Shown here: positions 2,102 through 24,836 of the stretch, piece by piece
Numbering within the stretch: the stretch's first letter is position 1
How the letters are laid out: each line of letters opens with the position of its first letter
Source: Thraustochytrium sp. TN22
Lineage: Eukaryota; Sar; Bigyra; Thraustochytrida; Thraustochytriidae
Length of the DNA: 64,000 bases
NCBI GenBank assembly: GCA_013306675.1
Contig: JABLUY010000196.1
Location: forward strand, 1 to 64,000
Direction: 5' to 3'
Position numbers and translations under genes: made by a program
Notes under the pieces: generated by a model
What the model was told of the DNA's origin: nothing
The model's database searches: none
Seen by the model: only the letters and a program-made list of their open reading frames with translations

Positions 2102-5100
2102 TTAGCGTAGGCTGTTGACGTTAAATCGTAGCAGAGGGTCGCGAATGGCTTCCTTGCAGTGCTCCAAGCGCATCTCGAGGCGCAAAAAGCGCTCCCGCCG
2201 CGATGCATCCACCTCGGCCTCGAGAAGGGACCGATGGTACGCCGGGTCCGCGAAGCGGGGCTCTGCACCGTCCTCCGGCGTCGGCGCCACCTCCACACCG
2301 AGGTCGGCGAAGAAGGCACTTTCGACGTTTTCAAAGGCGAGCTGGGCGCGCGAGACGGAAGCGGAGACCTCCGCCTCCGGCAGGCCCTCGCGCGCCCGGA
2401 GCTCCTCATCATCCTCATCCTCATCGTCGCTGAGCTGGTCCTGGTCTCGGGCGCCCGCCAGGAGGTCGTCCGGGCTTGCCCAGAGGCGTGCCTCGCCCGC
2501 GAGCGCGGTCCGTGTCGGCCGAAAGCGGTCCGAGATGGTTGGCTCGATGGCGAGCGCGAGCGCGCTGGAGATGCCCGCGGTCCACGCCTCGCTGGCGGCG
2601 CGCGTCTGCGGCGGGCCGAGCTGCACGGGCCGCGGGCGCAGCGCAAAATCGTTGTCCGCCTCGGTGAGGCCCGAGGGTGCCTCAAAGACTCGCAGCTGGC
2701 GCTGAGGCAGCAGGAGCTCCAGCGCTGGCGCGCCACGCGGCGTACGCCACGCCGCCGGCATTTCGGCACGCAGCAAGGCCTCCGGCACGACCTCGCCCGG
2801 GTCCTTCCAGCAGGACTCCTCCGCAGCGCCGTGCCGTAGCACCTTGTCGTCGCAGCGCGGCAGGTACTGCGTCAGCTGCGGGTAGGGGAAGCGCTCGTAG
2901 CCGCACAGCTTGGCCTCCTCCGGTGCGCGCAGCTTGAAGTAGCCCAGGTCCTGGAAGCCCTGGACCGGGGCCGTGCGAACCGGCTTGGCGTCAAAGACCG
3001 TCGAGTCATTGAAGAGCGGGAAGGACACCAGGTGCAGCTCCGCCGCGTCTCGAAGCGCCGCCGCCATGATCTCCGAGGTCCCGGGCGGCTCGTCCGTGAA
3101 GGCGGCGGCCATCTCGTCGTCCGGGTCCACGTTCCGGTGTAGAGCCGCGCCGTCCGAGCCATCTGCTGCTGCTGCTGCTGCTGCCGACGCCGAGGACTCG
3201 AGTGATGCCTGGCTCCCGAGCGGCGTCACGGTCGCGGGCGGCAAGCTCGCTTGGCTGTCTGAGAGCTGCGCTAGCACGGCGTTGGTACCTAGGCGCTTCA
3301 CCAGGTTGGCCGGCTTCTTCATGATCTCGCGGCGGTGCCGCTTCCACGAAGGCTCCTGCTCCGCCGTCTTGTCGGGCTTGCTCGGCACCGACAGCTTGGC
3401 GCGGATATGGTCCTCCTCGACAAGCGCGCGCACGGCACTGCGCGTGCGCGCCGACCCGAGGCGCTTCCAGATGGCAGCCAGGCGCCGCTGCGCACGCTTG
3501 CGCACAAGAATCTTGCCGATGATGCGGATGAAGCGAACTGTGACAGCCTGACGCCGACGCCAGTCATCGTTCACGAAGGGGTCGAAGGTGGGCTCGTCCA
3601 ACTCGTGCTTCTGCTCGGCTTCGACGTTCCCAGGCGTAGACGGCGCGGGCGGCGCGGGCGCGGGCGCGGGCGCCGCCACGCGTACAGGCGGCACGCTGCC
3701 GGGTCCCAAGCAGCGCGTGCCAAAGGCTAGGCGCTCCTCCGCCCGCCTGGCTAGCGCCGCCGCGCGCGCCCGGCGCTCGCGGTCCTCGAGGATGGTCTCA
3801 ATGTCGAGATTTTCGAGGCGCTGCTCCCCAATGCAAACAGCCTGGCTGGCGAACTCGCGAGACTTCTCCTCATCCTCGATCTCAACCACCTGCTGCAAAA
3901 AGACCATCTCCTTGACTTGCGCCGTCGTGGACGGGTCGTCGGCACGCATGTCGTCGTTCATGATGCGCTGCGCCGGCTGCAGGCCGCCCGCGCTCCCGAA
4001 CTTTTTCTGCGCCGCCTCCTTTGCGCGGCGCTCCGCGTCGCGCGCGCGGCGTTGCTTGGAGATGGCCACCTTGAGGTCCTTGGGCTTGAGCTTCCCGGGT
4101 TCCTGCGTCAGGACGAAATTCGTCGCCTGCACGCCCTCCAGGCGGCGCGGGAACTGCAGGCCCTCGATCGTCACCATCTGCTTGGCGCTCTCGCCGTCCC
4201 CGCCCGCCTCTGCGGCAGCCGCCGCGCGCTCGTCCTCCTGCTGGTTGCCGCCGTGTGCGCTCTTCTTGCGCGCGAGGCGCTCGGCGCGCAGCGCCTCGCC
4301 GCCTGGGTCGTGGTGCGCGTCGCGACGCGCGAGCGCCACGCTCGCGTCACCGTACGTTTCGAAGCGGACCTGCTTCAGCGCGCGCACCACCTCCGGGTGC
4401 TCGTCACCGAAGCGCTCGTCGAGCTCCTCGTGGTGCGCCTTCTCCTCACGGTCCGTCGCCGCAGCGCGCAGCAAGCCGGGCCGCGAGCTGCCGGTCACCG
4501 TGCAGACGATGGGCTCGAAGCCAAACTGCGCCACCTTGAGCCGGAAGGCGTACGAGCTCACCTGCAGTCGGTGCGGACGGTACTCCACCACAAGCTTGGC
4601 TTCGCCGTTCGCCGGGATGGTGCCCGCCGAGGGCTGGACGGAGAACTCCGCGTGCGGGGTGAGCTCCATCACCTCAAAGTCGAAGGAAACCGGGACCTTA
4701 CAGCGCAGCGAGAGGGTGCGCCGGTGTGTCTCCTTGAGCGCGCACGCGCCGAAGTCCAGCAACCGTGGCACGTCCACCTGATTTGCCACCGGGTATGCGT
4801 GAAGAGGGATCTCTAGCCTGGCCTCGTTAGCGAGCACGACCAGCGTGTCCTTGTACACCCTCCACTCATCCGGCCGGAAGCTGACGCGCACCACCTCGCT
4901 CAAGCCGGCAGGCAGCCGCTCGTGCGGCGCAAACGACGAAGAAAAGGCCGCCGTCTCCGGCGGGAGGACGCGGACGCGCATGTTACCTGCCGACGCATTT
5001 GTCACGCGCACCTTGAGAACATGTTCCTCGCCCACCGTGTACCCTCCAAAGTGCAGCACCGAGGGCGCGACGACCACCTCGGCCTCGTGCAGCTCGTCGT

Positions 5101-5861: not shown

Positions 5862-8800
5862 ATGGACACGCGACGGCGCGCGGCGGCCGAGGCGCTGCCG
5901 GACGCGCCGCGGTCGAGCGTGCAGGTGAGCCGGAGGTCGCAGTACGACGGGCCGGCGTGGCTGGAGCGGCGCAGGTCCGGCTACAAGGGCAGCGCGTGGT
6001 TTGACCTGCCGGAGGGCAGGCGGGCGACGTCGGACCAGGACCACCGCCAGCAGCAGCAAGAGCAGGAGGAGCGGCGGGCGACAGGCGTCTCGGTACTGGG
6101 CGCCCGTGCCGCTGATCTGCGACCTGTTGCGGCCATTCTCGAGGCGCTCAAGGCCAAAGAGAAGGTACAGGCAAGGCCTGACACACGGCACGAATGCAGC
6201 ACGCCGTGCGCAGCGACGCATCGCGGGTCGAACGCAGAGGCGTATTGCTCCTGCAATGCGGCAGCGTCCGCGGCAGTGGAAGCCGCGGCCGCGGCAGCCG
6301 CAGGCCTGCAGGCGATCCGCGAGCAGGCGGAACTGGCGGCAGACGAGGCGCTGCAGGCGCGCTTGCGCGACATCGTGTTGCAGCGGGCCGAGGCGCGGCG
6401 CATGGAGCTGCGGTTCTTTGAGCGGCTGGTGAACGGCTACGATATGGACGCCACAAAATTAATCAAGTCGCCACAGTACCACCTGCCGCGCACGCTCAAG
6501 CTGATGGACGCCAAGGACGCAAGCGAGCGCGCCCAGGAGTCCGGCGTGCGGCGGAACTGGGGACGCATCAAGATTGCCTTCGACCTGCACGGCGGTGTGC
6601 TGGCGCTGCCACAGCTGCGGGACGCCATGGTGCACGGCGGTTTGACGGAGGCGCACGCCGGCCGCGCCGTCCTGCGCGCGGCCGGCCTGCTCCTTCCAGG
6701 CGAGGACCTGGTCACCTACGAAGACCTACTCGCGTATTACTTCGGTGACCAGGAAGACGCGTACGAGACGGACTCGGATGCAGAGGTCGAGATGTATGAC
6801 CCCGGCCAGGATGAGGAGGAGCCGCACCACACGCGGAAGATGTCGCGAGAAAAGAGCTTCAGCGGGCTCGGGTCCGGGCGAGACGGCAAGTTCCTGCGGC
6901 CCGGGCGCGTGCGGCGGCTGCGTATGAAGATCAAAGCGGCCGTGCAGTCCAAAGGCGTGCCGCTTATGCCGGGGGGGTCTCAGGCTGCGGTGAATGCTGA
7001 CGCCGAGGCGGACGACATCCTGGACGAGGTGGGCATCTCGGTCAAGTACCTGAAGCAGATCGACAAGGAGTGGCTCGCAGAGAAGCCGTACCGCAAGTCG
7101 AGCCTGCTGGTCCAGGGCGCGGGCGGCGCGGGCTCCCCGGGCGCAGCTTTGCCGGCGCTGGTGCAGCGCGCTCCGACGGCAAGCCCGGACTGGCTGCCGG
7201 GGCGGCGGAGCGATTCGCAGCTGCGCAGCAAGGCGTCTCTGGCGGAGGCTGTCCTGGTGGTGCGCGTGCGCGCGGCGACGTGCATTTGCGCCGTGGCGCG
7301 CGGGTGCCTGGTGCGGTGGCGTGCGCGAGCCATCTTCGAGGAGAGCATGGTGGCCAAGGCCTACCACGTGCGCGTGGTGCGGCTCGTGCGCAGGTGGTTC
7401 GCGTGGTCACGGCAGCTGCAGTTCATGAACAAGAACGTGCGCAAGGTGTTTTGTCGGTGGCGCAGCCACGTGCGGCGGCTGACCAAGTCGCGCGAGTTCT
7501 TCCGGCTCACGTTCTGGCCCTTTTACATCTGGAGGCGCTATGCGCACAGGCGCGCCGTGGCGACGCGCAAGGCGCGGCACCTGAAGCGCGTGTGGCGCAC
7601 GCTAACGATGCTGCGGCACTTTCGCGCGTGGCAGGGCCAGGTGACGCGCGCCAAGTCGGGCTTTGGACGCGCGCTCAAGCACCTGGCCCGACGCCAGGGA
7701 CGCGAGCTGCAGGTGCACTTTGAGGCGTGGCGGCGCTGGAGCGGGCAGGCGCGACGACTGAGCGCCTCGTGGGAGATGGGCGGCGAGGCTCTGCGGCGCA
7801 AGGTCCTGCACGATCGGACGCGGCGCGCATGGTGCGCGTGGAAGGTCTTCGCGCGCGTGTCGCAGCGCTCACGGCGCACGGCGCTGCGCTACTACAACGT
7901 GGTCCCGGAATGGTTTGCCAAGAAGCAGGTGCACTTTCGGCGCCAGCGCAGGCTGAGCCCGCGGTTGTACGCGACGGACAAGGAGGTGCACGTGCCTGCG
8001 TGGCCCTCCCTAGCGCTCACGCTCGGACCCCAGTGCGACGGCTTCGCGCGGCGGCACCCGCAGCTGGAGGCGGCGCTCTCGCAGTTTGATGAGGACATGC
8101 GCGAGGACACGCTGCGGCAGCGCAAGGTAATCTGCATTGAGCGGAACCGGCTGGGCGGCGGCGTGCTGCGCAACTGGCGGCTCGTTGTGGAGGCCGGCCA
8201 GAAGGACCGCTACGCATGGCACCACTACGTCCGCGGCGTGCAGCGCCGCGTCTTCGCGGCCTGGGACGCCTGCACCACGCACGCGGTGCGTCCGAAGCGG
8301 CGCCAGCAGCGAGACTCGAGCGGCTTCGGCAAGCCGGCGCCCCAACCTCGCACGACGCTCTTCATCGCGGGCTCCAAGGGCGCGCGCGGGGCGGGCGGCC
8401 GAGGCGTGGAGAACGGAGATGGGAAAATGCACGCGCGCGGGGACGAAAAGGCGACAGCGACGGAGGGCGACGACGCGGAGCGCGGGCCGTCGTCGCCAGC
8501 GGGCCAGCGGCAGCCGCGTCGGCGCGAAAGCTACGAGGAAGCGACGGCGCGGCGGCGGTCATCGCTGCGCGAGAAGCAGCGCGCGCGCATGAATTCGCTG
8601 GGCGACTTTCTGGGCGACCCGCAGGTGCGGCGGCAGAACCTGCGGCGCGCGACGACCCAGGCCGCTCAGGTGCGGCGCGATCGGCTGAGCCGCGTGGTCC
8701 AGCTGCGCGAGCACGCGACGCGGCTGGAGCTGGCGCGCGAGAACCTGGCGCTGAGCGAGTCACACGCCGCGGAGCTCTTGGAGGAGCGGCGGCAACAGCT

Positions 8801-11075
8801 TGAGGAGAAGAAGCGCCTGCAGATGGAGCACGCGGAGCACCTGCGCGCGATGCGCGCGCGCATGATGCACAACGCGCTGTACTCCGTCTTCGAGCAGATG
8901 GAGCGGCAGCGCATGGAGGAGGTGATGCGCACGTGCTTCCGCATGCTGCGCTTCCCGGTGATCGCTCGCAAGTCTTTCGGCATGCTGCAGTACAAGCGGC
9001 TGCAGAACTGGGTGCGCATCTGCGTGCGCTTCCGCAAGCTGTACAGGTCGATGCCAACGTACTACCGCGTGCGGCTCAAGTGGGTCACCTTCAACCGGTG
9101 GCTCGCCTTCGTGGACGCGCGCATTCGCGGCGAGACGCCCGGCCTGCGCGAGGAGCTGCTGCGACGGCGCTCGCGCCTGGGCTTGCTCAGCGCGTACGTG
9201 CGCGAGCGCGGCGAGAACGTCATGACCGACCCGGGCGACACGCGCGTGTGGTTCCTGCGCTGGGTGGAATTCGCGCAAAGCGCGCACATGAGGCAGCGTA
9301 TCGGCGCGCTCGTGCGGCGGCGGGGCGACCTGCTGCTGCTGCAGCGCGTGCTGGCCAGCTGGCGCGCGGGGCTCAAGACTGCGCACACCGTCCCACTGCG
9401 CGAGGCCACCGGCGGCGAGCCCTTCGCGGCGGCGCGCTGCGCCTTCGACCTGGACAAGTGGCGCTGCCGCATGCTCGTGCTCGAGCGCAGCCTACTCACG
9501 TCGCGCCTGCGCCGACGCAACCGCTTCGTGGACTCCGCCGTGCGCGCTTCGGTGCTGGACGTGACGCGCCAGCCGCTCACGCTGCTCAAGCGCGTGCTGG
9601 ACGAGCACGTGCACAAGACGACTCGCCGCCTGGAGCTCGAGGTGCGCCTGCTGTGCTCCGCCTTCAACGAGCGCGGCACGTACTCGTATGCGGACACGCG
9701 CACGCCGATGGTCGGTCTGCCGCTGGCCGAGGCCAGCGGCGCGCGGGCCTTCACGGACACGCCGGCGGAGACCAGCGTCAACATCGAAAGCGTCATCGTC
9801 GCGGTGAGCGAGGGCATGGTGGTTGGCCTGCAGTTGCGCCTGCGCAGCGGGCCAGTAGGCGCGCCCAGGCTCTGGCTGGGGCCTGTGCATGGCTTCCGTG
9901 CCGGCGGTGGTCTGGACAGTGGCGGTGTTGGCGAAGACGGCGGCGACGGCCTGGACGGCGACGAGGACTTCCTCCAGGTGACCGGCCTCGGTGGCGGCGC
10001 CTCGACGGGCCCGCCGGCAACGCGGGCGGCCAAGCACGGCTTCGGCAACGCGCCGGGTCTCAAGACGTACGAGTTCCGCATGCAGGACCCGCACGAGCGC
10101 ATCACGCAGGTGGAAGGCTTCGCGATGCACAACATGGTGGGCGGCAAGCTGCGATTCCGCACGAGCAACGGGCGCGTATCCCCGTGGTACGGCTCCTGCG
10201 AGACTGGCAAGCGGTTTGCGCTGCCGGGGCCGCCCGAGATGACGAGCTTCGGCAAGCCGCGGTATGAGGAGGAGTTCGTGGTGGGCTTTTTTGGCGCGTG
10301 CACAAACAACTCGATTCTCTCGCTGGGCGTCCTGCTACGCCAGGTGGACAAGAAGAACGTCTTCTCGCGTTGCTGGCTGGACCGCGTGGACTCGCTCATG
10401 GACGTGACGGACGACGCTGGAGCTGGCATGGACGAGACCAACATCGAAGAGCAGCAGGCCTTTATTGAGCAGCAGAAGCTCGAGCACCAGCGGCAGTTCA
10501 ACACGGTGCTGGCGATGCGCCGCACCGACGTGGAGGTGGCACTGCGACGGTCGACGCAGCTGGCGCGGCGCGTGCGCTATGGTGACACGGTGCCCCCGGC
10601 GCTGGCCACGGTGCGCGTGGCCGGCGCTCTCATGCGCTGGTTCTTCAACGCGCTCTCGCGAAAGCTCGTGCGCTTCAGCGCGCGCACGCACCGCATGGCT
10701 GCCGTCAGCATGCAGGATGCCTCGCTCTCGCGCGGCTACATGATGATCCAGCAGGGCAACTCGCGCCTACGCAACGCCAAGAAGCAGTTGCGCCGTCTCG
10801 AGAGCCTCGCGTATCGCCGCTCCGGCGACCGCGCCGCGCACAAGCGCGCCTGCCTCACCGAGGCGGAGATCGGCGCCAAGCGATTCCACGAGCTGAAGGC
10901 CGCCATTGAGCACCAGCAAAAGGAGCTGGGTGACGCCCAGGCTCTCATTCTCAAGGGTCGCACTACTGTGGACCACGGCCTGCACAACATGCCGAAACTG
11001 GAGACCTCTTTGCCGATCCTGGCTTACTACGAGGACCTCGTGCGCTTGGCGCAGATCAAGGACCAAATTGGTTAA
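5862..11075 (+). CDS. Giant IQ/SFI1-like repeat protein with a jacalin-like domain
   Basis: A 1737-residue protein not recognised as one known orthologue. Residues about 231-296 form a weak EF-hand-like pair. An IQ motif (CICAVARGCLVRWRARA) lies near 470-490. Two blocks (about 506-670 and 1022-1180) have tryptophan-spaced basic helices such as VRRWFAWSRQL, FCRWRSHVRR and LRHFRAWQGQV. This is the pattern of SFI1 repeats, each of which binds a centrin. A coiled coil lies near 942-990. From about 1305 to 1495 a beta-rich region matches the jacalin-like fold: ESVIVAVSEGMVVGLQLRLR, then ITQVEGFAMHNMVGGKLRF and EEEFVVGFFGACTNNSILSLGV. It has a glycine-rich insertion. The C-terminus is helical. I infer a basal-body or axoneme-associated scaffold. 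The upstream frame from 5790 starts at a non-ATG codon, so the first ATG (MDTRRRAAAE) was chosen. Confidence 0.6.
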   Translation: MDTRRRAAAEALPDAPRSSVQVSRRSQYDGPAWLERRRSGYKGSAWFDLPEGRRATSDQDHRQQQQEQEERRATGVSVLGARAADLRPVAAILEALKAKEKVQARPDTRHECSTPCAATHRGSNAEAYCSCNAAASAAVEAAAAAAAGLQAIREQAELAADEALQARLRDIVLQRAEARRMELRFFERLVNGYDMDATKLIKSPQYHLPRTLKLMDAKDASERAQESGVRRNWGRIKIAFDLHGGVLALPQLRDAMVHGGLTEAHAGRAVLRAAGLLLPGEDLVTYEDLLAYYFGDQEDAYETDSDAEVEMYDPGQDEEEPHHTRKMSREKSFSGLGSGRDGKFLRPGRVRRLRMKIKAAVQSKGVPLMPGGSQAAVNADAEADDILDEVGISVKYLKQIDKEWLAEKPYRKSSLLVQGAGGAGSPGAALPALVQRAPTASPDWLPGRRSDSQLRSKASLAEAVLVVRVRAATCICAVARGCLVRWRARAIFEESMVAKAYHVRVVRLVRRWFAWSRQLQFMNKNVRKVFCRWRSHVRRLTKSREFFRLTFWPFYIWRRYAHRRAVATRKARHLKRVWRTLTMLRHFRAWQGQVTRAKSGFGRALKHLARRQGRELQVHFEAWRRWSGQARRLSASWEMGGEALRRKVLHDRTRRAWCAWKVFARVSQRSRRTALRYYNVVPEWFAKKQVHFRRQRRLSPRLYATDKEVHVPAWPSLALTLGPQCDGFARRHPQLEAALSQFDEDMREDTLRQRKVICIERNRLGGGVLRNWRLVVEAGQKDRYAWHHYVRGVQRRVFAAWDACTTHAVRPKRRQQRDSSGFGKPAPQPRTTLFIAGSKGARGAGGRGVENGDGKMHARGDEKATATEGDDAERGPSSPAGQRQPRRRESYEEATARRRSSLREKQRARMNSLGDFLGDPQVRRQNLRRATTQAAQVRRDRLSRVVQLREHATRLELARENLALSESHAAELLEERRQQLEEKKRLQMEHAEHLRAMRARMMHNALYSVFEQMERQRMEEVMRTCFRMLRFPVIARKSFGMLQYKRLQNWVRICVRFRKLYRSMPTYYRVRLKWVTFNRWLAFVDARIRGETPGLREELLRRRSRLGLLSAYVRERGENVMTDPGDTRVWFLRWVEFAQSAHMRQRIGALVRRRGDLLLLQRVLASWRAGLKTAHTVPLREATGGEPFAAARCAFDLDKWRCRMLVLERSLLTSRLRRRNRFVDSAVRASVLDVTRQPLTLLKRVLDEHVHKTTRRLELEVRLLCSAFNERGTYSYADTRTPMVGLPLAEASGARAFTDTPAETSVNIESVIVAVSEGMVVGLQLRLRSGPVGAPRLWLGPVHGFRAGGGLDSGGVGEDGGDGLDGDEDFLQVTGLGGGASTGPPATRAAKHGFGNAPGLKTYEFRMQDPHERITQVEGFAMHNMVGGKLRFRTSNGRVSPWYGSCETGKRFALPGPPEMTSFGKPRYEEEFVVGFFGACTNNSILSLGVLLRQVDKKNVFSRCWLDRVDSLMDVTDDAGAGMDETNIEEQQAFIEQQKLEHQRQFNTVLAMRRTDVEVALRRSTQLARRVRYGDTVPPALATVRVAGALMRWFFNALSRKLVRFSARTHRMAAVSMQDASLSRGYMMIQQGNSRLRNAKKQLRRLESLAYRRSGDRAAHKRACLTEAEIGAKRFHELKAAIEHQQKELGDAQALILKGRTTVDHGLHNMPKLETSLPILAYYEDLVRLAQIKDQIG

Positions 11076-11105
11076 AATACCCGATGTCAGGTTCGCGCTC
11101 AGTTG

Positions 11106-11160
<55 letters not shown>

Positions 11161-11609
11161 TTGCCGCGCGCTTCGAGCCTCGCCAGGTCGTTTGTTGGTC
11201 TGGACTCTGGTCACGTCACGCCCGTGACCGGCGCGCCGGCCGGTCCGGGCAGCGCCTCAACCTGCCATGATGAGAAAGATACCAGCCAGCAGGTAGGCCT
11301 AACTTAAGTTAGAAAGAAACTCTCTCTGTACGCCACGGCACTGCAATTGTCGTTCGTAGGCTAGGTAGCTACGCGCAGTCGGCACTTCATGCAGGTACCA
11401 CCGCGGCCAGCGAAGCGCGACGCTGCGCGGCGCGTCAAGCGCACTGAAAAGCTGGCAGCTGCCACGCTGGCCGGCCAGCCACGACAAAAAGCGGTCAAGA
11501 TCCTTTTTGTGATTGAGCGGCTCATTATCGCAGGTCCTGACCGATCTTCTCCTCTCGCTCTCGCTCTCACTCTCTGTCTCTCCTTCATTTTTTATGCACG
11601 CACTCAGTC
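11076..11609. other. Intergenic region between convergent gene ends
   Basis: It contains a TGCC tract, a CT-rich microsatellite near 11545-11585 and no convincing coding frame. It probably holds both 3' untranslated regions. Confidence 0.5.
11104..11160. repeat. (TGCC)n tetranucleotide tract
   Basis: About 14 perfect TGCC units lie just downstream of the SFI1-like stop codon. It is the only long tract of this kind found at gene 3' ends; the other long ones lie upstream of starts. Confidence 0.95.
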
Positions 11610-12683
11610 TCACAGGCGCGGCCCAAGGGGGCGGCGCTCAAAGAGCCAAGGCTCCGGCTTATTGCGCAAGATGCGGTCGATCTTGGCCATGTGGTCGTCG
11701 GTGAGCTTGCGGGCGACCGGGATGGCGCCGAGGTTCTCCTCAATCTGTTCGGTCTTGGTGGCGCCCAGGAGCACGGTGCTCACGTTGGGGTTTTTGATGC
11801 ACCAGGCGAGCGCGAGCTGCGACATGGAGCACTGAAACTCCTTCTCGGCCATGTTGGAGAGTTGCTGCACCTTGTCGATGGACCCGTTCTTCTTCCATGA
11901 CTCGAGCATCTTGACGAGCCAGCCGTAGCCGGCCTGGGCGAGGCGCGAGTCCTCCGGGATGCCGTCCTTGTACTTGTTGGTGAGCAGACCAGACGCGAGC
12001 GGGCTCCAGATCGTGGTGCCCATGTTGTAGGGCTGCCGGTAAAGCGGGAAGTACTCTTGCTCGAAGCGCTGGCGGTGCATCATGTTGTACTGGGGCTGCT
12101 CGAAGGCAGGTGCGATCATGCCGCCGCGCTGCGCGATGAAGTACGCCTCGGTGATCTGCTGCGCGCTCCACTCGCTGGTGCCCCAGGCCGTGGCCTTGCC
12201 GGAGCGGATCAGGTCCGTCATGGCCTGCACGACCGTCTCCGTGCTGGTATACGGGTCGGGGCGGTGGCAGAAGATGAGGTCCACGTAGTCGAGCTGCAGG
12301 CGCTTGAGCGACGCATCCATGCCCTCGTTGATGTGCTTGCGACTCAAGCCCTTTTCATTCACGTTGCCCTCGTCATCCTGGGCACACCAGAAGAGCTTGG
12401 TCGTGATGACGAGCGCGGAGCGACGCCACAGCGTGGGGTCCTCCTCGCGCAGCTGCGCAAGTGCCTCGCCCATGATGCGCTCCGCCTCGCCGGAGGGGCT
12501 GCCGTAGACCTCGGCGTTGTCGAAGAGGTTCACGCCGGCCTTGCGCGCCACGCGCAGGCAGTCCTTGGCCATGTCGATGCCCTGCTGCTCGCGCAGCGTT
12601 GTCTTGACGCCAAAGGTTGCCCAGAAGCCATAGCTCAGCACAGACACCGCCAGGCCCGTGTTGCCCAGCATGCGGTAGTACAT
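11610..12683 (-). CDS. Aldo-keto reductase, voltage-gated K+ channel beta-subunit type (AKR6)
   Basis: An intact 357-residue NADPH-dependent aldo-keto reductase resembling Kv-beta subunits and bacterial YghZ/AKR14 proteins. The start MYYRMLGNTGLAVSVLSYGF is the canonical N-terminus. The catalytic tetrad is visible as Asp and Tyr in FDNAEVYGSPSGEAE, Lys in VITTKLFW and His in IFCHRPDPYTS. WSPLASGLLTNKY and LLGATKTEQIEENL are the cofactor-binding stretches near the C-terminus. The family reduces aldehydes and ketones in the cytosol, and in animals it can sit on Kv channels. No channel gene is in the window, so a channel partner is unproven. The start lies 110 bp from the divergent seven-helix gene. 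Confidence 0.88.
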   Translation of the reverse strand: MYYRMLGNTGLAVSVLSYGFWATFGVKTTLREQQGIDMAKDCLRVARKAGVNLFDNAEVYGSPSGEAERIMGEALAQLREEDPTLWRRSALVITTKLFWCAQDDEGNVNEKGLSRKHINEGMDASLKRLQLDYVDLIFCHRPDPYTSTETVVQAMTDLIRSGKATAWGTSEWSAQQITEAYFIAQRGGMIAPAFEQPQYNMMHRQRFEQEYFPLYRQPYNMGTTIWSPLASGLLTNKYKDGIPEDSRLAQAGYGWLVKMLESWKKNGSIDKVQQLSNMAEKEFQCSMSQLALAWCIKNPNVSTVLLGATKTEQIEENLGAIPVARKLTDDHMAKIDRILRNKPEPWLFERRPLGPRL

Positions 12684-14765: not shown

Positions 14766-15987
14766 TCAGTTGTGTACAACAAAGAAAAACCAAAAGACAA
14801 TGCCAAAGCAGCTGGCGCAGAGCGCTGCGAAGCGTGGGTAGCGAAAGTACCACGCGAGGCGCTTGCGCTTGAGCGCGTAGTCAGGAGCGACGAGGGACGC
14901 GCTGCTGCTCGAGGAGGCGGAGCGTGCCGTCCGCATGCCCTCCTGCGAGGCCTCGGAGGCGCTCCGAGCAGGGCGCGCCTCCGTGGCCTGAGTCGCCGCC
15001 TCGACTGCCTCCGTTGACCTCTTTTCGTCCACCGCTTGCGTCGCCTCCTCGGCGAGCGAGAGAGCACGGGCGAGAGGTGAAGGCACAGCGGCCGTGGCGG
15101 CGGCCGCGGCGGCGAGCGAAGCCGTCTGTACCGTGCAGGCTTGGCTGTACGGGGTGCAGACGCCGTCAACGACGGCCTGCACGCGAGCCCTGTACATGGA
15201 GTTAGGCTGGGCGGCGGCGAAGACAAAGGCCGAGGACGGCCCGCAATAGACCTCCGCGAAATCCGGGCGCCGGTCGCGCTTGGACTTGATGAGCGCCACC
15301 TGGAGCCGGAAACCGAGCGCGGCCGCGTCCTTCCTGTCCGACTTGCCCCCCGAGGGCGGCGGCATCGTCCAAGTAAAGGTGAGTGGGTCTAGTGAGCTGG
15401 CCACGAGCGACTCTGGTGCTTGCGGCGCTTTGGGCGCCTCGGGCGTCGTGAAGCGCGCCCAGGCCGAGAACGGCCCGCTGCCAGCCGAGTTGACGGCGCG
15501 CACGCGGAAGCCGTACGCAGAGGCCGCGCGAAGCTTCTTGAGCACGGCGCGCGTCGTGGCGCCGGCATGAAAGACCACGGCCCCGCCAGCGTCGGCCCCC
15601 AGGCCGCCCTCGTCGCGCACCACCTGCGTCTCGTAGCCGAGGATGCTATCACCGCCGTTGTCCTCCGGCGCGTCCCATTCACAGACCGCGTTGGAAGCCT
15701 GCTCCACCTTGACCTGGACCGCACCACTTATGGGGCCTGGCACGGCCACGGGCATGCGCATGCTGGCCGGCTCCGACGCAGGGCTCTCACCCAGACGCGA
15801 GACAGCCACGACGCGCACCGCGACGCGACTGGCCGGCGCCACGCGGTCCAGAACGAAGTCAGTCGCCTCGGCTGGCAGCAGCGGCACATCCGGGTGCGCC
15901 GAGACGAAGTCGTCCTCGCGCTCGCGCGCGGACACACCGCCGCGGGACTTGCCAGTCTGCGAGGAGGAGGAGGCGGAGGCGGAGGAG

Positions 15988-16019
<32 letters not shown>

Positions 16020-19000
16020 CTTACGGCGCGACCGCAGCTTCGACGCCGGGGCGACGCTCGAGGTGCTGGAGGTGGTGGCGCTCGAGACCTCGACACGATA
16101 GCCGCAGAGCTTCTCGCCACATGCCCAGGGCGCAGTCCAGCGGACGCGAAGGGCGGGGCGGGCATTGGCAACCTCGTGGACTTGGAGCGACACCTGCTCC
16201 GGGGCCTCAGGCGGGCAGGCCGCGGACCGCACAGCGCAGGCCGCGGACCAGGGCGCCGCCAGGCCGTCGACCCAGTAGCGGAAGCGGAAGGCGTAGAGCG
16301 CGCCGCTGCGCGCGACGCTCACGGTGGCAGTGCGGTCACCGCGCCGCGGCGTGGCCACCACGCAGAGGTCGGTGCTCGCGACGGACTGGCCGAGGGTGGG
16401 CAGCTCCGCATCGCTCATGGCGATTTGGAAGCGGTCGGCCTCGAGCGGGACCTCGGGAAGAACGAGCATTACAGAGCGCTTCGTGACGGTCTTGTGCCGC
16501 GGGGCAGAAGCTCGCGCGGGGCGCGCGCGGCCTACCTCAAGGGGCGTACTGGCCTCACTTGGGTCGCTCTGGCCCGAGGCGGAGACCGCCACTGCATGGA
16601 ACTCGTAGACGGCGCCCGGCGCCACGGCGCCGAGGACGCACGAGGTCTCCGCGCCCCGGTACAGCTCGACCCAGGCGCTCGCGGGCGCATCCAGCGGCGT
16701 CGCGGATACCAGAGCCTCGTCGGACCCAGGATCATCCTGGACGCGCAGCACCTCTGCGAGCACGCACTCGGTCACGTGGTGGTCGTCGGAGAACTGGACC
16801 CAGTAGCCCTCAGGCGTGGCACGCAGGACGCGCGCCGGCGCCCAGTCGTCGGCGAGCGCACCGTAGCGCGGGCGCAGCGCGCTGCAGCGGTCGCCAGGCG
16901 CGAGGGGCGACTTGGGGGCGGCGACCTCCTTCTTGTTCTCGAGCGCGGCGGCGGTGTTGGCCCAAGCAGGTCGCTGCTGGTCGAGGCGGCGGCCGAAGAC
17001 GACATAGTCCACGTCGGCCGAAGGTGAGGACTCCCAGCGCAGGTGGAGCTTGCCGTTGCAAAAGTTGGCCCGCACGCAGCCGCGCGGCGCGGCGGGGCGC
17101 GGGGGCGCCAGCGTGAAGAGGACCGCCTCGGACGGGTCCGACCAGCCGAACTCGTTCATGGCGAGCACGCGAAAGGCATAGGTTGCGCCGGCCGCGAGGT
17201 CGCGCACGGTGCAGGACTGTAGCGCGCCGGTATAGGCGAGCGTAAAATCAGTGGCGTCCGAGGCGCGGTGCTCCAGCGCGAAGGAGCGCACCAGCGCCCC
17301 AGCCGGGGCCTGCCAGCGCACGCAGGCCGCTGGGCTGGCCGCGGACGCGTCCTGGGCGACCGCGGGCGCGGGCAAGCGCTCGGGTGCCGCCCCAAGCGTC
17401 TGGAAGCAAAGGGCGGCGGAGAAAGCAGAGCGGCCGACCGCGTTCTCGGCGCAGACGCGCACCTCGTAGGGAGAGGCCGGGGCTAAGCCGGAGAGCGTGC
17501 AGTACTTGTCGCGCCCGGAATACGCAGGGACGAAGGTGTCGCCGCGCTTGAGCTCGACGTGGTACATGGGTTCCGCGTCCGACGAAGTGATGGCGTTCCA
17601 TCGCACAAAAGCCCCAGCACAGTCCACCGCGCAGGCGACCGGGGCACTGGGCGCCGCGGGCGCCGCGGCGGTGAGCGTGACCGGCAGCGAGGCGGACCAG
17701 GGACCGCGGCCGGCGGCAGTGAGCGCGCGAACACGGTACGCGTAGGTGCGGCCGCGCGAGAGACCATCGGCGCAAAAGGAGTGGTCGGTGCCAGCGTGAA
17801 CGAGAACGGTCCGACCGCGCGGGTCCGTCTGCTCGACCTCGAAGCCAGTGAGCGGGGCGCCGCCCAGGCAAAGCGGGTCCTCCCAGAAGAGCTCGCAGAC
17901 GCCCGGCTGGACGTCCGCCAGAGCGCCCAACTCGCACGGCGCCAAAGGCGGCAGCAGCGGCGTCTGAATGGTGTTGCGCGGCGCGTGGATGCGCAGCTCG
18001 TTTCCGCGGACGTCGTCGTCTTCGTCCTTCTCGCCGAGGTCGTCCTCGAGGTCGTCCTCGAGGTCGTCCTCGAAGTCATCCTCGTCGTCGCTGTCTGCAG
18101 CCGGGAGCGGCGCGGGCGGCGCGCAGCTGCCGGCCGCGGCGCCGGCGAGCACCTCAAAGGCATAGCTCTCGGCGCCGAGGCGCAGGCCGGCGACGCGCAC
18201 GCGGAAGCGCGCGGAGCCATCGGATGCGCGGGACAGCGCGGCCGGGTCGAGCTGCAGCCGCTGCACGAGGTCCCAGTGGTCTGAGTGGTCAGCACGATCG
18301 TCGCGGTGCTGGCGCTCGAGCGCCACGAGCACGTAGGTGTAGTCGTTTTGGTAGCAAGTGATGACGCCCGAAACGAGGGCCGCGCAGGTGCGCCCGAGAC
18401 CGCGCGAGGCGCCATCGACGACGGAGAGCTTGAAGGGCAGGAAGCGCAGGCGGCACGGGGCCGCGCGGCGCTGGCGGCGGTGGGCCGCCAAAGCGAGGGC
18501 GTCCTCGTGCTCGTGCTCTTCTTCGTCGCCCGGCGTAGTCTTTTGCTCCGCCAGGGCGAGCGAGTCGATCTGGAACAGCGCGCTTGCGCTGCTTGCGCTG
18601 CAGGTGCTGCTGCAGCGGCTGGTCACTCCGCTGCCGTAGGGCGAGGAGGTGCGGCGCGGGCGGCGCGGCTGCGCGCTGCAGGCGCGCGTGTGCGGCTTGC
18701 CGAGCAGAAGCATCATGTCGGCGTCGCGATCCGCGTCGTCGTCGTCGTGCGTGTACATGGCGGGCGAGGAGGACCTGCGCGCCAGGCGCTGAAGCGCCTT
18801 GGTGGCGACGTCGCACACGGGCTGGTCGCCGTCCAGCGCGGGCGGGGAGGGCGTCTGACAGGGGCGGGTCGGCGGCCCGAAGAAGAGGCGGCCCCTCGCG
18901 TCGTCGAGAGCGAGCGCGGCGCGCCCGGTCTCCCTCGCAGCGGCCAGGCTGCTGCACGGACTGGACGGCTTCTCCTCCGTGCAGCTGGAGCCCGTCGCGG

Positions 19001-19205
19001 ACCCCGCCTCGCTGCTGTCTGTCTCAGCGCCCGAGTCGGACGCCGACGCGTCTGCGTCGGGCGGGGGCGACTCGTAGCGCTGGCCTCGCACCCCTTGCCC
19101 GCTGCGCCGCCGCCGCCGCGTCCTCGGCGGCGCGTCCATGCCCTCGCCGTGTCCGCGCGGGATGCCGCCGGCCATCATCACGCCGGCCTCCTCGGGCCAG
19201 CCCAT
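14766..19205 (-). CDS. FNDC3-like tail-anchored protein with eight or nine fibronectin type III repeats and a Tudor-like insert
   Basis: A 1479-residue protein. The N-terminal ~250 residues are low complexity and charged. Eight or nine fibronectin type III repeats follow. Each ends in a typical Y-x-F/V-R-V-x-A-x-N-x-x-G-x-S stretch, for example YAFRVLAMNEFGWSDPSEA and YGFRVRAVNSAGSGPFSAW. The final ~28 residues are a single transmembrane helix with almost nothing after it (ALCASCFGIVFWFFFVVHN), which indicates tail anchoring in the ER or Golgi. The number of repeats plus a C-terminal anchor is the plan of animal FNDC3A/B. The fourth repeat is split by an SH3/Tudor-like module at about residues 770-816 (WAPARVLRATPEGYWVQFSD). 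Poly-Gly and Ser/Ala-rich loops interrupt another repeat. The frame is open ~250 codons further upstream in GC-rich repeats. The first credible start is MGWPEEAGVMM. Confidence 0.68.
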
Positions 19206-19312
19206 GCTCGCCGTCGCCGCCGCTTGACCGCCGCGAGACCGCCGCGGCCGCGACCGGCGCCCGCGTCGGCGCCCGCGTCGGCGCTGCGCCCTGTCCCGTC
19301 CCGGGCGTCTGT

Positions 19313-19529
19313 CTGCCTGCCTGCCTGCCTGCCTGCCAGCCTGTTTCTTTTCGCCGCCGCTCGCGCGCCGCGCGCTCCGCGCTCGCTCGCTCGCTCGCTC
19401 TCGCGCGCGCCGTCGCCGGCTCGCCGCCGCTCCGCCGCGCTCCGCTGCGGCTCTGCTGCCACTCCTGCGCGCGCTCACTCTGCACCGCACCGGCGCAGTG
19501 GGCCTGCCTGCCTGCCTGCCTGCCTGCCT
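19313..19529. repeat. Two TGCC tracts upstream of the FNDC3-like start
   Basis: Short (TGCC)n arrays at 19313-19337 and 19502-19529 read (GGCA)n on the sense strand of the FNDC3-like gene. The nearer one is ~110 bp before its ATG. Confidence 0.85.
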
Positions 19530-20121
19530 CTCTGCTGCCGGCTTGCCGGCTGCCTCCTTCTCGCCGGCCGACTCGCGCTCCGCCGCGCGCTCGCCCGCGC
19601 GCTCAGCGAGCGAGGCGAAAGCGCCGGCTCGCGGCCGCGCGCTCCCTCGCCGCGCCGCCGCCCAGCGCCGCGCCGCGCCGCGCGAGGCGGCCGAGGCGCG
19701 CCGAGGCGGCCGCCGCCGGGCTGCCGCCTGCCTGCCTGCCTGTCGCTGGCGCTGCGCCGCCGGTCGCGGCCAGGCCAGGCGAGGCGAGGCGAGGCGAGGC
19801 GACCGGCCAACTCCGCCGCGCCGCGCCGCGCCGCGCCGCACGCCGCGCGCTCCTCGCTGCAGCGCCGCGCCGCGCCGCACCGCGCAGTCGGGTCTGCCGC
19901 GCCGCTGCGGCGCTGCGCGTGCACAAGCGGCGGAGAGAGAGGGAGAAGTCAGAGAGAGAGAGAGAGACCAGCCTGACAAGTTGATCTGGCTGGCGTATCG
20001 TTAGTTTCGTTGCGCGCGCCTCCGCGCGGCTGCCGCCAACCCGCGGGTCGCGCCGCGTACCTCGACCAGCAGCGAGGCTCGACAGCGCGTGGTACAGTTA
20101 GTACCTCGAGATCTGACTCAT

Positions 20122-20139: not shown

Positions 20140-20848
20140 GCTGCAGCTGGCTCGCCATGAGTCGGCCAGCCCGCACTGCACGCGATGGCGAGCGTCGCGA
20201 GGACCTACGCCTTCGGCAGCCTTCGGCAGCCTGCCTGCGGTTTGACGCGGGCGCGAGGCGAGCGCGCTGTGCAAGGGGAAGTGACGCGGGCAGCGCCGCG
20301 CCGCGCCGCGCCGCGAGCGCAGCGCCGCGAGCGGCGGCTCGTGCCTCTCTCGCCTGCCACTGCCTCGAAGGGAATCCACGGCGGGAAAAGTGAGGGGCGC
20401 CACTTCCTGCCACTGGCAGTCAGTCGGTGTCACAGGCTGCAGTGTTCGTGGGCGAGATGGAGTGCCAGTCACCATCACTGGTCCGGCGACCGCCGGCGCT
20501 GTGTGGCCGCCGGCGCGGGAGCGGGAGGAGCCCGCATGCATACACTGACGACCCGAGTCAACCGCGTGCCTCGGAGGTTCTGGGCGCCGGTGGCCGCGCA
20601 AAAGCATGTGCACGCGACGAGCGTGGCGTCTCCAAGTGGCGGTGCCTTGCACAAGGCTTGCAGTGCAGTGCGGCGCAATGCGTGCGACGCACCGGCCAGG
20701 CGCAGTCACGCGGAGTCTGTCACGGCGGCACAGTGCGGCACGCGGCGGCGTGCGGAGTGCACCCGCCGCCACGCGGCGAGCCATTCCATTTTGTTTGACG
20801 GACGGGAGCGGCTCCAAGCAAGCAAGGCGGGCCGGGCACCGCAGCGTG

Positions 20849-20858
20849 CGTCTAGGGG
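20849..20858 (+). repeat. Left terminal inverted repeat of the candidate transposon
   Basis: CGTCTAGGGG matches the reverse complement of 24726-24735 exactly. The next two bases match at one position (AC versus TC). Confidence 0.5.
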
Positions 20859-21455
20859 ACCAGTCTGACAGGGTGTAGCCCGGAGGCCTGGCCGGGCCGG
20901 GCAATGTGAAAAAATCCGGTCCTGGCCCGGTGGCGCCACTGGGAGGGGGTATTCGCGGCGCAACGCCGGGCGCTTTATTTTTCCGGTCCCGGTCGCGCGA
21001 CGGGGCGCAACCCGGTGAGGCGGCGGGGCGTGGCAAGGTGATGGGGCGGGTCAGGCTCGGCGGAGCGGCGAGCCCAGCCCGGAGGGGGAGTGGGCCAGGC
21101 TCGGTCATGCGAACGAGTCGAGCCCGGCCGGGGCCGGCCGGGGTCAGCTCTGTCAAGGGCAAGAGCGAAGCTCGGTCTCGAGACCGGGCAAGTTTTGTTC
21201 CTTTCAAGTTCCTAGCTAGCTAGCTACCAGGTAAGGTCGCGGTTATCTGCGTGCGAGAGGGTGGCAGGATACTCTTGCTCCTGCCTGGCGCGCGTGGTGC
21301 TGTGCTTTTCCTCGGCCCTCTTGCGCTTCTCGTTGAGCTCCTCCTCCGCCTTCTCCTTGGAAGTGAGCATGTTATTCAAGGACGCGCCAACATCGAAGGT
21401 CCTAGTGTCTGCCTTGTCGTTGCCGGGCTCCTCGTTCCTCGTGAAGTGCTTGAAC

Positions 21456-22890
21456 TAGGCATAGCAGCGGTCGAAAAGGGCAAAGGCCTGGCCGTGAGCG
21501 CCTTTGTGCGCATGGGAGCCCTCAGCTGTGCCCTTGGCGCGCCGCACGATGCATGCCCAGAGCCACGCAAGCTGGACGCGGGTCACCAGGCCAAGGAACT
21601 GCGTCGTGGTGACGTCGGAGTTCTTAAGCGTCGTCCACGCAGGTGCGGACGGCGGCAGGAAAGCGACCGCCGCCCAGGCCATGAGGAGCTCCATCACCTC
21701 CTTGTCGACCTCTGCGCTCTTAGTCAAGTGCTCGCGTTAGCTCGCCATCTCACAAGTCTTCGCCGCATCTCGCCTCTTCACCACTTACTGGAGTCCCAAC
21801 GGAAGATGCATGCCTTGTGCACGCCCTCGGCGTCCCTCTGCAGCGAGGGGCTGATCTGGAGCGTGCCACGCTGGTCCGGCGTCTCCAGCACTGGAAACAG
21901 GCGCTTGTCCTGGTGCGGTGCCCACTCCTTGGCGCTGGCGGTGTTGTCCAAGCCGCTGGGCACGCCTGCGAGCGCCACAGCGGAGTGCTGCTCCTCGCCG
22001 TGCACGCTGCAAATCGCCTCGTACTGGTCCAGGAAGAGCTGGAGTCGCTGGGTGACGTCCTTGCTGAACTTGGTGCGTACCGCGGACACGTAGACGCCCA
22101 CGCCCTTCAGGATGCGCTCATTGCCGGCGAGCTGGCGCCAGAAGACGGTGTAAACCTCTTCGTACATCTTCTGCTTCGCGGGTGTGGCCCGCGACAGGAC
22201 GCTCTGCGCCCGGCCTGGTCGCTCAAAGAAGCGCTGCCGGTGTTCCGTCGTCACGTCGCGCGCGGCCTCCATCGCCTCGCCCAGGTACGTACGCAGAAAG
22301 GCGGCCTCCATCGCGCTGATGAAACACTCCTTCGCCCCGCGATAACGTTGACGCCATGCCGTCGAAAAGATCATGCCGCCGTCCCTGAGGAGGTCTGCGC
22401 CGAGGGCAACGAGCTGCCGTTGGATCAGGACAGTCAAGTCGGCCTCCGTGCGCTTTTGAACCTGCTGGAGGTGGGACGCGTGGAGCTTCGAGACACCGTC
22501 AATCGCGGACACGGCGGCAATGGAATCCGCCATCAGGCGCACGTCCTGCAATTGTGACTTGGCGATTGCGAGGATCCGCATGCCAATGGACTCCATCTGC
22601 GAGGCAGCCATGACGGCATCCTGATCATGGGTGTTGGCTGGAGTCGGCGTCGCCGACCGAGAGCTCGAGTACTCCGTGGCCAGAGAAGGCGAACGTTGCT
22701 CCGGTGGAATGGGGGGCGGTGACCACGGCTGCTGCGGCTGGTGATGGTCTTGGTGCTGCTGCTGCTGGTACTGGTGCTGGTGCTGGAGCTGGAGCTGGAG
22801 CTGGAGCTGGAGCTGGAGCTGGAGCTGCTGCTGCTGCTGCTGGACTTGCTGGGTTCGGCTCTTGGTGCTGGTCTGGCAGCTGGTGCTCAT
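21456..22890 (-). CDS. Unknown Q/L-repeat protein inside the candidate transposon, probably spliced
   Basis: Not recognised. The first exon (21789-22890, 367 codons) starts at the ATG of MSTSCQTSTK. It carries Gln runs and Leu-Gln/His-Gln dipeptide repeats, then a helical region (LMADSIAAVSAIDGVSKL, VYTVFWRQLAGNERILKGVG). A good intron is visible at 21712-21788: GTAAGT donor, GCTAACG branch-like word, GCAG acceptor, in phase. It leads into KVDKEVMELLMAWAAVAF and a stop at 21456. The same frame then continues open to 21224 with clearly protein-like text (FKHFTRNEEPGNDKADTRTF, then a KEKAEEELNEKRKRAEE helix). A second intron at 21456-21586 (GTGACC...CCTAG) would keep phase and remove the stop, giving an end at 21224. 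Which form is real is open. Confidence 0.4.
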
Positions 22891-23112
22891 CCAGCTTTCC
22901 ACGCCTCTTCGGCGGCTTACGCTGCGTTTGCTTGCGCGGCATTCTTCGTGGCGAGCTCGACGAAGATATGCAGCTAGAACGCGACGAGCACAGGCTCTAC
23001 GTGATCGCAGCTTCGACGCTCAGCCGCGCCTCGCCCCGCGTCACGGTTCTGTTCGCCCTGCGGCGTGCGCAGAGGGCGCAACCATCGTCCCGAGGATTTG
23101 GGCGCGAGGAGC

Positions 23113-24045
23113 ATGGTCCATGGTTGGAGGTCGCTACGCGCGAGAGCGGCCGGCGCGCGAGAAGGGCCACGCGCGTGGCCGTCGGCAGCACGCTGTGCCG
23201 CGCTCTCGCGTCCGCGCTCAGAGAGCAATCGCCGCCGCCGCCGTCGCCGCCGCCGCCGCCGCCGCCGCGACTCGCAGCTGGTTGAGTCCTTGAGAAGCTT
23301 CGTCAAGTGGCATTGGAGAACGCTGCCACTTCTGGAGCGCGCTGGGATCAAGGCCGAGGCCCAAGACACCACGAGCCTCGCGGCCCTCATCTACTCGAGC
23401 CTGCGCAGGCATTTCGCTGAGAACACTGCGCTTCGTCTCTTCGAGAAGGCATCGCTCCGCGAAGGCAAGCTGGAGACCCTGCCGGGCGCTCGATGCACAG
23501 GCGCCGGCATGGGCGTGAATCGCGACCTCCCACCTTCAATCTTCATCACCGAGACTGAGCAGCTCCTCATGCCTTTGGGCTTCGTACAAGCAGTGGATGA
23601 GCGCGACGGCCATGAAGCCATCTGCGTAGTGGTTCGGGTTCGCCCTGATCGCGATGCACACGCTCGTCTCACGCGGCACCGTTTCCGTGGCGCGCACCTC
23701 TCAGGGTTCTGCGTGCTCGACCTCGACAGTCATCGCAGCATCAGAGACACGGACATCACCGTCACAACGCTTGGCAAGCTCAGCGGCGGCGATATCCTGT
23801 GGATCGATGGAGAGGGCTCCGGGAGGCGGCGCATTGCCTTCTGGCCCTCTGGCTCCCTCGCTTTCGGCTCGTGGACCATGCACCCCTTCGGGACGCATTT
23901 CGCTGCTGCGACAGCGACGCGCGGCCATTCGGTCCGGGCGCCTGGTACGCAGCGCACAGAGAGCACAGGTACCGCCGGTGAATCAGTGCTTGTTGAAGAC
24001 GTTCATCTCGTTGACGATGACCACGACGACGAGATCGAGTACTAG
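23113..24045 (+). CDS. Unknown protein, second divergent gene of the candidate transposon
   Basis: An open frame of 310 codons from the first in-frame ATG. The first ~55 codons cross a CCG trinucleotide run (poly-Arg) and are doubtful; a start at 23509 (MGVNRDLPPSIFITETEQ) or an upstream exon is equally possible. The later part reads like real protein, for example LVESLRSFVKWHWRTLPLLE, FVQAVDERDGHEAICVVVRV and GRRRIAFWPSGSLAFGSW. It ends in an acidic stretch. No domain was recognised. It is divergent from the Q/L-repeat gene across ~220 bp. Confidence 0.35.
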   Translation: MVHGWRSLRARAAGAREGPRAWPSAARCAALSRPRSESNRRRRRRRRRRRRRDSQLVESLRSFVKWHWRTLPLLERAGIKAEAQDTTSLAALIYSSLRRHFAENTALRLFEKASLREGKLETLPGARCTGAGMGVNRDLPPSIFITETEQLLMPLGFVQAVDERDGHEAICVVVRVRPDRDAHARLTRHRFRGAHLSGFCVLDLDSHRSIRDTDITVTTLGKLSGGDILWIDGEGSGRRRIAFWPSGSLAFGSWTMHPFGTHFAAATATRGHSVRAPGTQRTESTGTAGESVLVEDVHLVDDDHDDEIEY

Positions 24046-24116
24046 AGAAGCCTTCCCAACTTCCTGTCCAAGCATGACCAAGGAGGCCGCTTCAAGGACA
24101 CCGGCAACCGAGCTAG

Positions 24117-24341
24117 CTCGATGAAGAGGCGCAGAAACGTGCAGCCCGCCAACGCGAAGCGAAGGTCGCCCTTGGTCCGCCAGACCCAGACCCAGACAAC
24201 CAATACCACGAGCGCTGCCAGCAGTGCGCCCTAGCAACGCAGGCCCGCAACGTCAAGTTCTGCACAATCATCAACATGTTCCTTCTCTATCAGCTTGGCG
24301 CCCACGGCAAACGCGGCGCAGCATCACGGCCGAGCGGTTGA
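24117..24341 (+). other. Possible last exon of the transposon's plus-strand gene, with a CxxC pair
   Basis: After an AG at 24115-24116 a 74-codon frame is open to TGA. It is protein-like: a basic helix (LDEEAQKRAARQREAKVAL), a Pro-Asp linker, YHERCQQCALATQARNVKFC, and INMFLLYQLGAHGKRG. A C-terminal Cys-rich finger is common in transposases, but the match is only suggestive. The joining donor was not identified. Confidence 0.3.
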
Positions 24342-24725
24342 GCACCGCTCTGCCGCCCGGTACCGATTCGCACAAACGTCCCTTGACCATGAGCAGGCTG
24401 CCTGCCCGGCCGCCGCTCTTATGCTCGCCCTCTCCGCAATCAGCTGATTGTGCCGAGGCAAGGCAATGACCGGGTCAGACCCGGTGGTTGCGGCCTTCGA
24501 CCTTGCCAGTTCCGGTCGGCGATCTCCATCACCGAGCGCAACCGCGGCGACCGAGTCGCCCAGGACCCGAATCGGGCCAGCCTCGGTGAGGGCGCCACGG
24601 CACCCGAGTCAGCCCGGTCGCGCAAAGACCGAGACAGCCCCCGTCCCCGAGTACCGCTGCACTCGGTGCGCACCTTGGCTGGGCCCGGAGTTCATCCGAG
24701 CCACACGCAGTCCCTCCCAGGATGA

Positions 24726-24735
24726 CCCCTAGACG
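24726..24735 (-). repeat. Right terminal inverted repeat of the candidate transposon
   Basis: CCCCTAGACG is the exact reverse complement of 20849-20858. It lies 101 bp beyond the end of the neighbouring FCF1 gene. Confidence 0.5.
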
Positions 24736-24836
24736 TGGACGACGAATGGCAACCACGATTGAGTTTGAGTTTTCCAAGGTGGGCGGGCAGCGAGAAGAGA
24801 AAGAACGGCCCGGGGGCAAAGCAGCAAAAGGTCAAT

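Follow-up and report, generated by a model that had tools for sequence, protein, structure and literature searches.

A pair of divergent reading frames lies at positions 20849-24735 of a 64,000-nucleotide stretch of DNA (the window), and the question raised by this locus is whether the frames belong to a mobile element and, if so, whether that element is complete. A first-pass annotation, made from the window's letters, had proposed a two-gene DNA transposon of about 3.9 kb, belonging to a family that could not be named. The window's own assembly (37.9 Mb in 453 contigs, the window's contig being C106) was searched for further copies and for relatives. The segment is a real DNA transposon of about 3.9 kb with correctly placed ends. 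Very probably it is non-autonomous and arose by internal deletion from a cut-and-paste transposon that belongs to the CMCT clade (CACTA/EnSpm-Mirage-Chapaev-Transib) and comes closest to Plavaka; the complete form of this transposon has about 6.8 kb and two divergent genes.

Ends, target duplications and copies

The element is bounded by a perfect 10-bp terminal inverted repeat, CGTCTAGGGG, at 20849-20858 (plus strand) and 24726-24735 (minus strand), and by a 2-bp target-site duplication, TG, at 20847-20848 and 24736-24737. Both features had been described in the first-pass annotation and were found again by direct reading of the sequence. Taken alone, the pair of repeats with equal flanks is weak evidence, because many such pairs occur in this low-complexity, GC-rich window: it contains 2,939 perfect 10-bp inverted pairs spaced by 1-6 kb, 435 of them with equal flanking dinucleotides, a number that falls to 31 upon removal of low-complexity words by a filter that also discards the element's own repeat. 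Nor did the repeat serve as a genome-wide marker of copies. The reversed control pattern has 28 exact matches in the assembly and the repeat itself 17, made up of the two ends of each of five copies (10) and 7 lone occurrences.

The reality of the element is settled by copies at other sites that stop at exactly the same ends. Three more end-to-end short copies (C418:138438-142308, C206:8233-12103 and C77:149839-153709) and one long copy share the exact start of the window element. The short copies are flanked by GG/GG (C418), GC/GC (C206) and GC/GC (C77); with the window copy included, all four lie in 200-bp flanks that are unrelated to one another (23-36% ungapped identity). Over 3,871 bp the C418 and C206 copies are identical, and the C77 copy departs from them at 3 bases; between the window copy and the other three there are 26-29 substitutions as well as indels of 12 bp, 5 bp and 1 bp. 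Near-identical short copies within unrelated flanks are the pattern of recent transposition. A 2-bp duplication is found in all seven insertions with known ends, namely the five copies of the window family and two relatives on C222 and C450, the last of which was chosen with equal flanks as a criterion.

An eroded relic at C133:155402-155977 (L050) shows homology to the left subterminal region and the right end of the window element and has no recognisable ends. It is probably an old deletion derivative, and therefore the window family has probably been active for some time.

A long copy and the internal deletion

The long copy (C206:12106-18944, minus strand) has 6,839 bp, both ends in common with the window element, and GC/GC flanks. 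It aligns to positions 1-2457, 2460-2486 and 2486-3887 of the window element, with 95.6% identity over 2,482 bp in one outer part and 97.1% over 1,402 bp in the other. A central segment of about 2.9 kb, missing from the window at a junction at 23334-23336, holds the start and the catalytic core of a transposase. One open frame of 1,293 codons crosses this segment into the right part common with the window, and its product from the first ATG (P0001) has 1,279 amino acids. The window's plus-strand frame (23335-24231) corresponds to residues 982-1279 of P0001 with 93% identity and is interrupted by an in-frame stop at 24043-24045; judged by this alignment, it is a C-terminal fragment of the transposase and no gene. 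Each of the three sister short copies has one stop in each of the two stretches that are interrupted in the window. Since the transposase core is absent from the short copies, its frame runs on in the long copy, and the short copies carry stops, the window copy and its three sisters must have arisen by internal deletion, and the candidate for the autonomous form is the long copy. The two divergent protein-like units of the first-pass annotation thus exist as reading frames, although the plus-strand one is a transposase remnant, and the claim of a complete two-gene transposon does not hold for the window copy.

On C206 the short copy at 8233-12103 abuts the long copy with a single GC between them that is common to both, as if one had inserted into the target duplication of the other. 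A codon comparison among the copies yielded few changes (pN/pS 0.24-0.59), and it is not relied on here.

The transposase and its relatives

P0001 has N-terminal CxxC/C2H2-like fingers and a conserved C-terminal domain. Its signature D..D..C(2)C..H(3)H..E can be read as D456, D561, C577-x2-C580, D671-x2-H674, H836-x3-H840 and E860. Diverged relatives are encoded on C222 (36% identity, a 1,230-codon frame), C432 (34%, 1,307 codons), C161 (30%, a split frame) and C450 (41%, fragments), with further short fragments on C413, C124 and C159. All signature residues are kept in three of the four aligned transposases (C206, C222 and C432), and C161 keeps the CRAC and H(3)H pairs. In a Pfam scan of these four, for which C161 was represented by its C-terminal frame, only C432 matched Plavaka (PF18759; E 4.8e-5), and the CACTA transposase models gave no match at E up to 10. 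The CMCT placement follows from the signature residues, and the nearness to Plavaka from the weak match of the one relative; a fair statement is that the transposase is of the CMCT clade, Plavaka-like, with termini of its own. The family can accordingly be placed, although the first-pass annotation could not name it; in keeping with the absence of a host-family match stated there, the plus-strand frame has no Pfam match. A sequence search of PDB with the transposase returned 0 matches, and the best of 4 matches with its profile was a C2H2 finger at E 0.11. Viral contigs gave 61 pattern matches, with 0 confirmed relatives.

The C222 element has 7,741 bp, a 14-bp terminal repeat, CGTCTAGGCTATCG, CT/CT flanks and an open transposase frame, while the C450 element has 3,964 bp, a 15-bp repeat, CGTCTAGGGTTCCAG, and TC/TC flanks. 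Both also end in CGTCTAGG, which makes this terminus common to three subfamilies. A homologue of the window's minus-strand gene (gene 2) stands divergent to the transposase in C222 and in C432. Because the same ends and the 2-bp duplication recur in three subfamilies, and the divergent pair in three elements, they are features of the family rather than of a single locus.

On C432 (L045 and L062) both the transposase and gene 2 have long open frames; candidate readings are that this element is truncated, immobile or adopted by the host. In C161:44000-53999 (L046), the 5' side of the split transposase frame is a long in-frame repeat tract with ELGAQ/SLVLN words.

The divergent gene and the subterminal words

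Gene 2 lies on the minus strand, with exon 1 and the intron at 22942-21712 (the exon ending at 21789) and exon 2 at 21711-21227. The ATG at 22942-22940, which matches the start in the long copy, is out of frame in the window, where the in-frame ATG is at 22890-22888; an in-frame stop at 21457-21455 interrupts exon 2 where homologues read on. The N-terminal tract is glutamine-rich. The intron noticed in the first-pass annotation is supported as one of 77 bp (GTAAGT..GCGCAG, 21788-21712), since the GCGCAG acceptor keeps the frame of the long copy open to 546 amino acids and the intronless homologue on C111 reads straight across the site. A 70-bp intron with the acceptor CTAAG was rejected, as it breaks the frame. 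When eight gene 2 sequences (the exons of the long copy and homologues) were scanned against Pfam, no match was better than E 0.014, in keeping with the absence of a host-family match noted earlier. For the C111 homologue, the structure model (mean pLDDT 64.6) consists almost entirely of helices.

The homologues on C111 (L057 463-1944) and C260 (L059 364-1971) have long open frames. No transposase was found beside either of them, and no exact CGTCTAGG occurs in about 3.4 kb around each; it is possible that they are deletion derivatives or host-adopted genes. Weaker gene 2 matches lie on C4 and C16.

Dense words inside both ends, which had been reported from the sequence, are borne out by counts: ACCGRG occurs 14 times in the 630 bp formed by the left (20859-21208) and right (24446-24725) subterminal regions, against 4 times in the 3,237-bp middle, with a mean of 1.2 and a maximum of 6 in 500 shuffles. 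Two other words tried on the window element were less frequent (9 and 5). In the C222 element the corresponding word is ACTGCSA, with 11 occurrences in 880 bp of ends against 5 in the 6,841-bp middle (mean of 0.2 in shuffles); the region 2476-2771, flanked by the presumed start sites of the two genes, holds four of those five. Both motifs were picked post hoc, after inspection. Subterminal words cluster near the ends, and each of the two subfamilies has its own.

Comparison with known transposon systems

Plavaka (PF18759; PMC12730594) shares with the window family the D..D..C(2)C..H(3-4)H..E signature and 2-bp duplications, and the C432 relative matches its Pfam model below the cut-off. PlavakaA ends in 5'-TGT..ACA and PlavakaB in 5'-CATCA..TGATG (Kojima 2025, PMC12730594), whereas the window family ends in 5'-CGTCTAGG..CCTAGACG, matching neither. 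It further differs from Plavaka in having a divergent second gene and a host that is probably no fungus. In three subfamilies the termini are thus 5'-CG..CG-3' and not CA..TG, the latter being a usual rather than a strict feature of CMCT elements. Of the KDZ elements (Kyakuja, Dileera, Zisupton), Kyakuja and Zisupton differ in the length of their duplications, 7 bp and 8 bp respectively against 2 bp here (PMC12730594).

CACTA/EnSpm elements such as Spm/En and Tgm (PMC2613891) resemble the window family in the transposase clade, as judged by the signature, and in family-specific subterminal repeats at both ends; the likeness may extend to a subterminal-binding second protein, a role proposed here for gene 2, and to internal-deletion derivatives moved in trans. 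The first-pass annotation was right that the termini are not of the CACTA type (5'-CAC..), even though the transposase appears in the same clade as that of CACTA. The window family also differs in its lack of a CACTA transposase Pfam match, in a 2-bp duplication against the 3-bp one of Tgmt, and in a separate divergent second gene where alternative splicing is described for CACTA/EnSpm (PMC2613891). Plavaka elements outside fungi have already been reported, for example as the cut-and-paste EnSpm-Plavaka of the green alga Auxenochlorella (PMC12633428) and beside giant repeats in Amoebidium (PMC11244446).

In the literature, thraustochytrids were absent from the titles of Plavaka papers among the matches listed, and Plavaka together with stramenopile yielded one fungal paper. 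Nothing combined the terminal word of the family with "terminal inverted repeat", and none of the matches listed for EnSpm and labyrinthulomycetes held both terms. No name for the lineage was found in these papers, and the family may already have an entry in Repbase.

Weighing the explanations

Several results weigh against the reading of the window element as a derivative of a Plavaka-like CMCT transposon. The Plavaka match, found in one of four transposases, scores 23.2 bits, under the curated cut-off of 26.3; P0001 itself has no Pfam match, and a PF18759 scan of the whole assembly gave 0 matches. In C161 the last E is replaced by K and the D of DxxH by G, and no D aligns at the first position. 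Terminal repeats could be found in neither C432 nor C161. An empty-site search of the assembly matched only the window's own two flanks and revealed no empty allele. Of the 238 matches that a PDB fold search returned at E <= 10 for the model of the C111 gene 2 homologue, the best had E 0.21, so that none reached E <= 0.001. The AlphaFold2 model of the transposase is poor (mean pLDDT 45.8) and usable for strand order only, with D456 and D561 falling in blocks of pLDDT 55 and 48. On the supporting side, in the better part of this model (block pLDDT 47-78), strands, a long helix and strands are predicted in RNase H order, D456 just past the first strand and D561 just past the strand after the helix, and with modest confidence the region may be called RNase H-like in strand order.

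The short form is the commoner one (four of the five copies with these ends) and shows two divergent frames, as would be expected if it were autonomous and complete, a two-gene transposon from some unknown superfamily, and if the additional 3 kb on C206 were an unrelated insertion. However, the extra segment was rejected as such an insertion, the reading frame being continuous through it into the part shared with the window; the transposases of C222, C432 and C161 carry the same C-terminal part attached, and stops occur in both frames of the short copies. This explanation is largely refuted and very improbable. Still less credit is due to the idea that a host gene pair was duplicated, segmentally or in tandem, with no transposon at all. 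The two adjacent copies on C206 would suit it, but four sites whose 200-bp flanks are unrelated share identical ends and each show a 2-bp duplication, a transposase is present, and relatives have the same ends; it is refuted unless wider flanks are homologous. An ordinary CACTA/EnSpm derivative with drifted termini is unlikely: the CMCT signature, the clusters of subterminal words differing between subfamilies and the two-protein design, which recalls the CACTA elements of soybean and maize (PMC2613891), agree with it, whereas CGTCTAGG in place of CAC termini in three subfamilies, the absence of CACTA Pfam matches in four transposases and a Plavaka match as the only one to a transposase family do not. 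About equally doubtful is that the short copies were mobilised by a source other than the long copy on C206, such as the C222 transposase or an unassembled copy. The C222 element is long, has ends of its own and keeps its transposase frame open, and an assembly in 453 contigs may lack some copies; on the other hand, the terminal repeat of C222 beyond CGTCTAGG and its subterminal word are unlike those of the window family.

The internal-deletion reading suggests the following mechanism. A complete copy would encode the 1,279-amino-acid DDE-type transposase and, divergently, the mostly helical gene 2 protein of about 546 amino acids. The transposase would cut at the CGTCTAGG ends and join them to targets staggered by 2 bp, while the gene 2 protein may bind the family-specific subterminal words in the way that TNPA binds the subterminal repeats of Spm/En (PMC2613891). 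A complete copy, for instance C206:12106-18944, would act in trans to move the short copies. More tentatively, and with rather less confidence than an even balance would call for, the family may be proposed as a CMCT lineage of its own that is the sister of Plavaka and is marked by CG..CG termini (5'-CGTCTAGG). Such a lineage would depend on both proteins of the divergent pair, the large transposase and a new, mostly helical partner that binds the ends and has diversified along with the subterminal words of each subfamily; it would be active still, or have been so until very recently, in a labyrinthulomycete protist.

The window element and its copies add a Plavaka-like lineage with clear boundaries, probably in a thraustochytrid; one copy appears to be complete, and the deletion derivatives are nearly identical. 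They suggest that ends of the CG..CG type can be used by CMCT transposases, and they provide a second-gene family whose pairing with subterminal words is testable. They also correct an annotation error, the plus-strand frame being a transposase fragment rather than a gene.

Host and genomic setting

A full PfaA-type polyunsaturated fatty acid (PUFA) synthase, the lack of a match to the light-harvesting family PF00504 and spliceosomal introns form a combination that points to a thraustochytrid. PF00504 was not found in the genome. The PfaA-type PUFA synthase lies at C124:26703-39024 as a 3,044-codon frame, beside a divergent 2,083-codon frame. Together with its neighbours in frame it reaches 2,539.7 bits, where the cut-off is 1,010.1; on 14 control genomes, the same model gave matches under the cut-off in 10 and above it in none.

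In the window, the element has a frame with fibronectin type III domains on one side and an Fcf1 gene on the other. The former, next to the insertion at 14766-20000 on the minus strand, has 1,744 codons and four fibronectin type III stretches.

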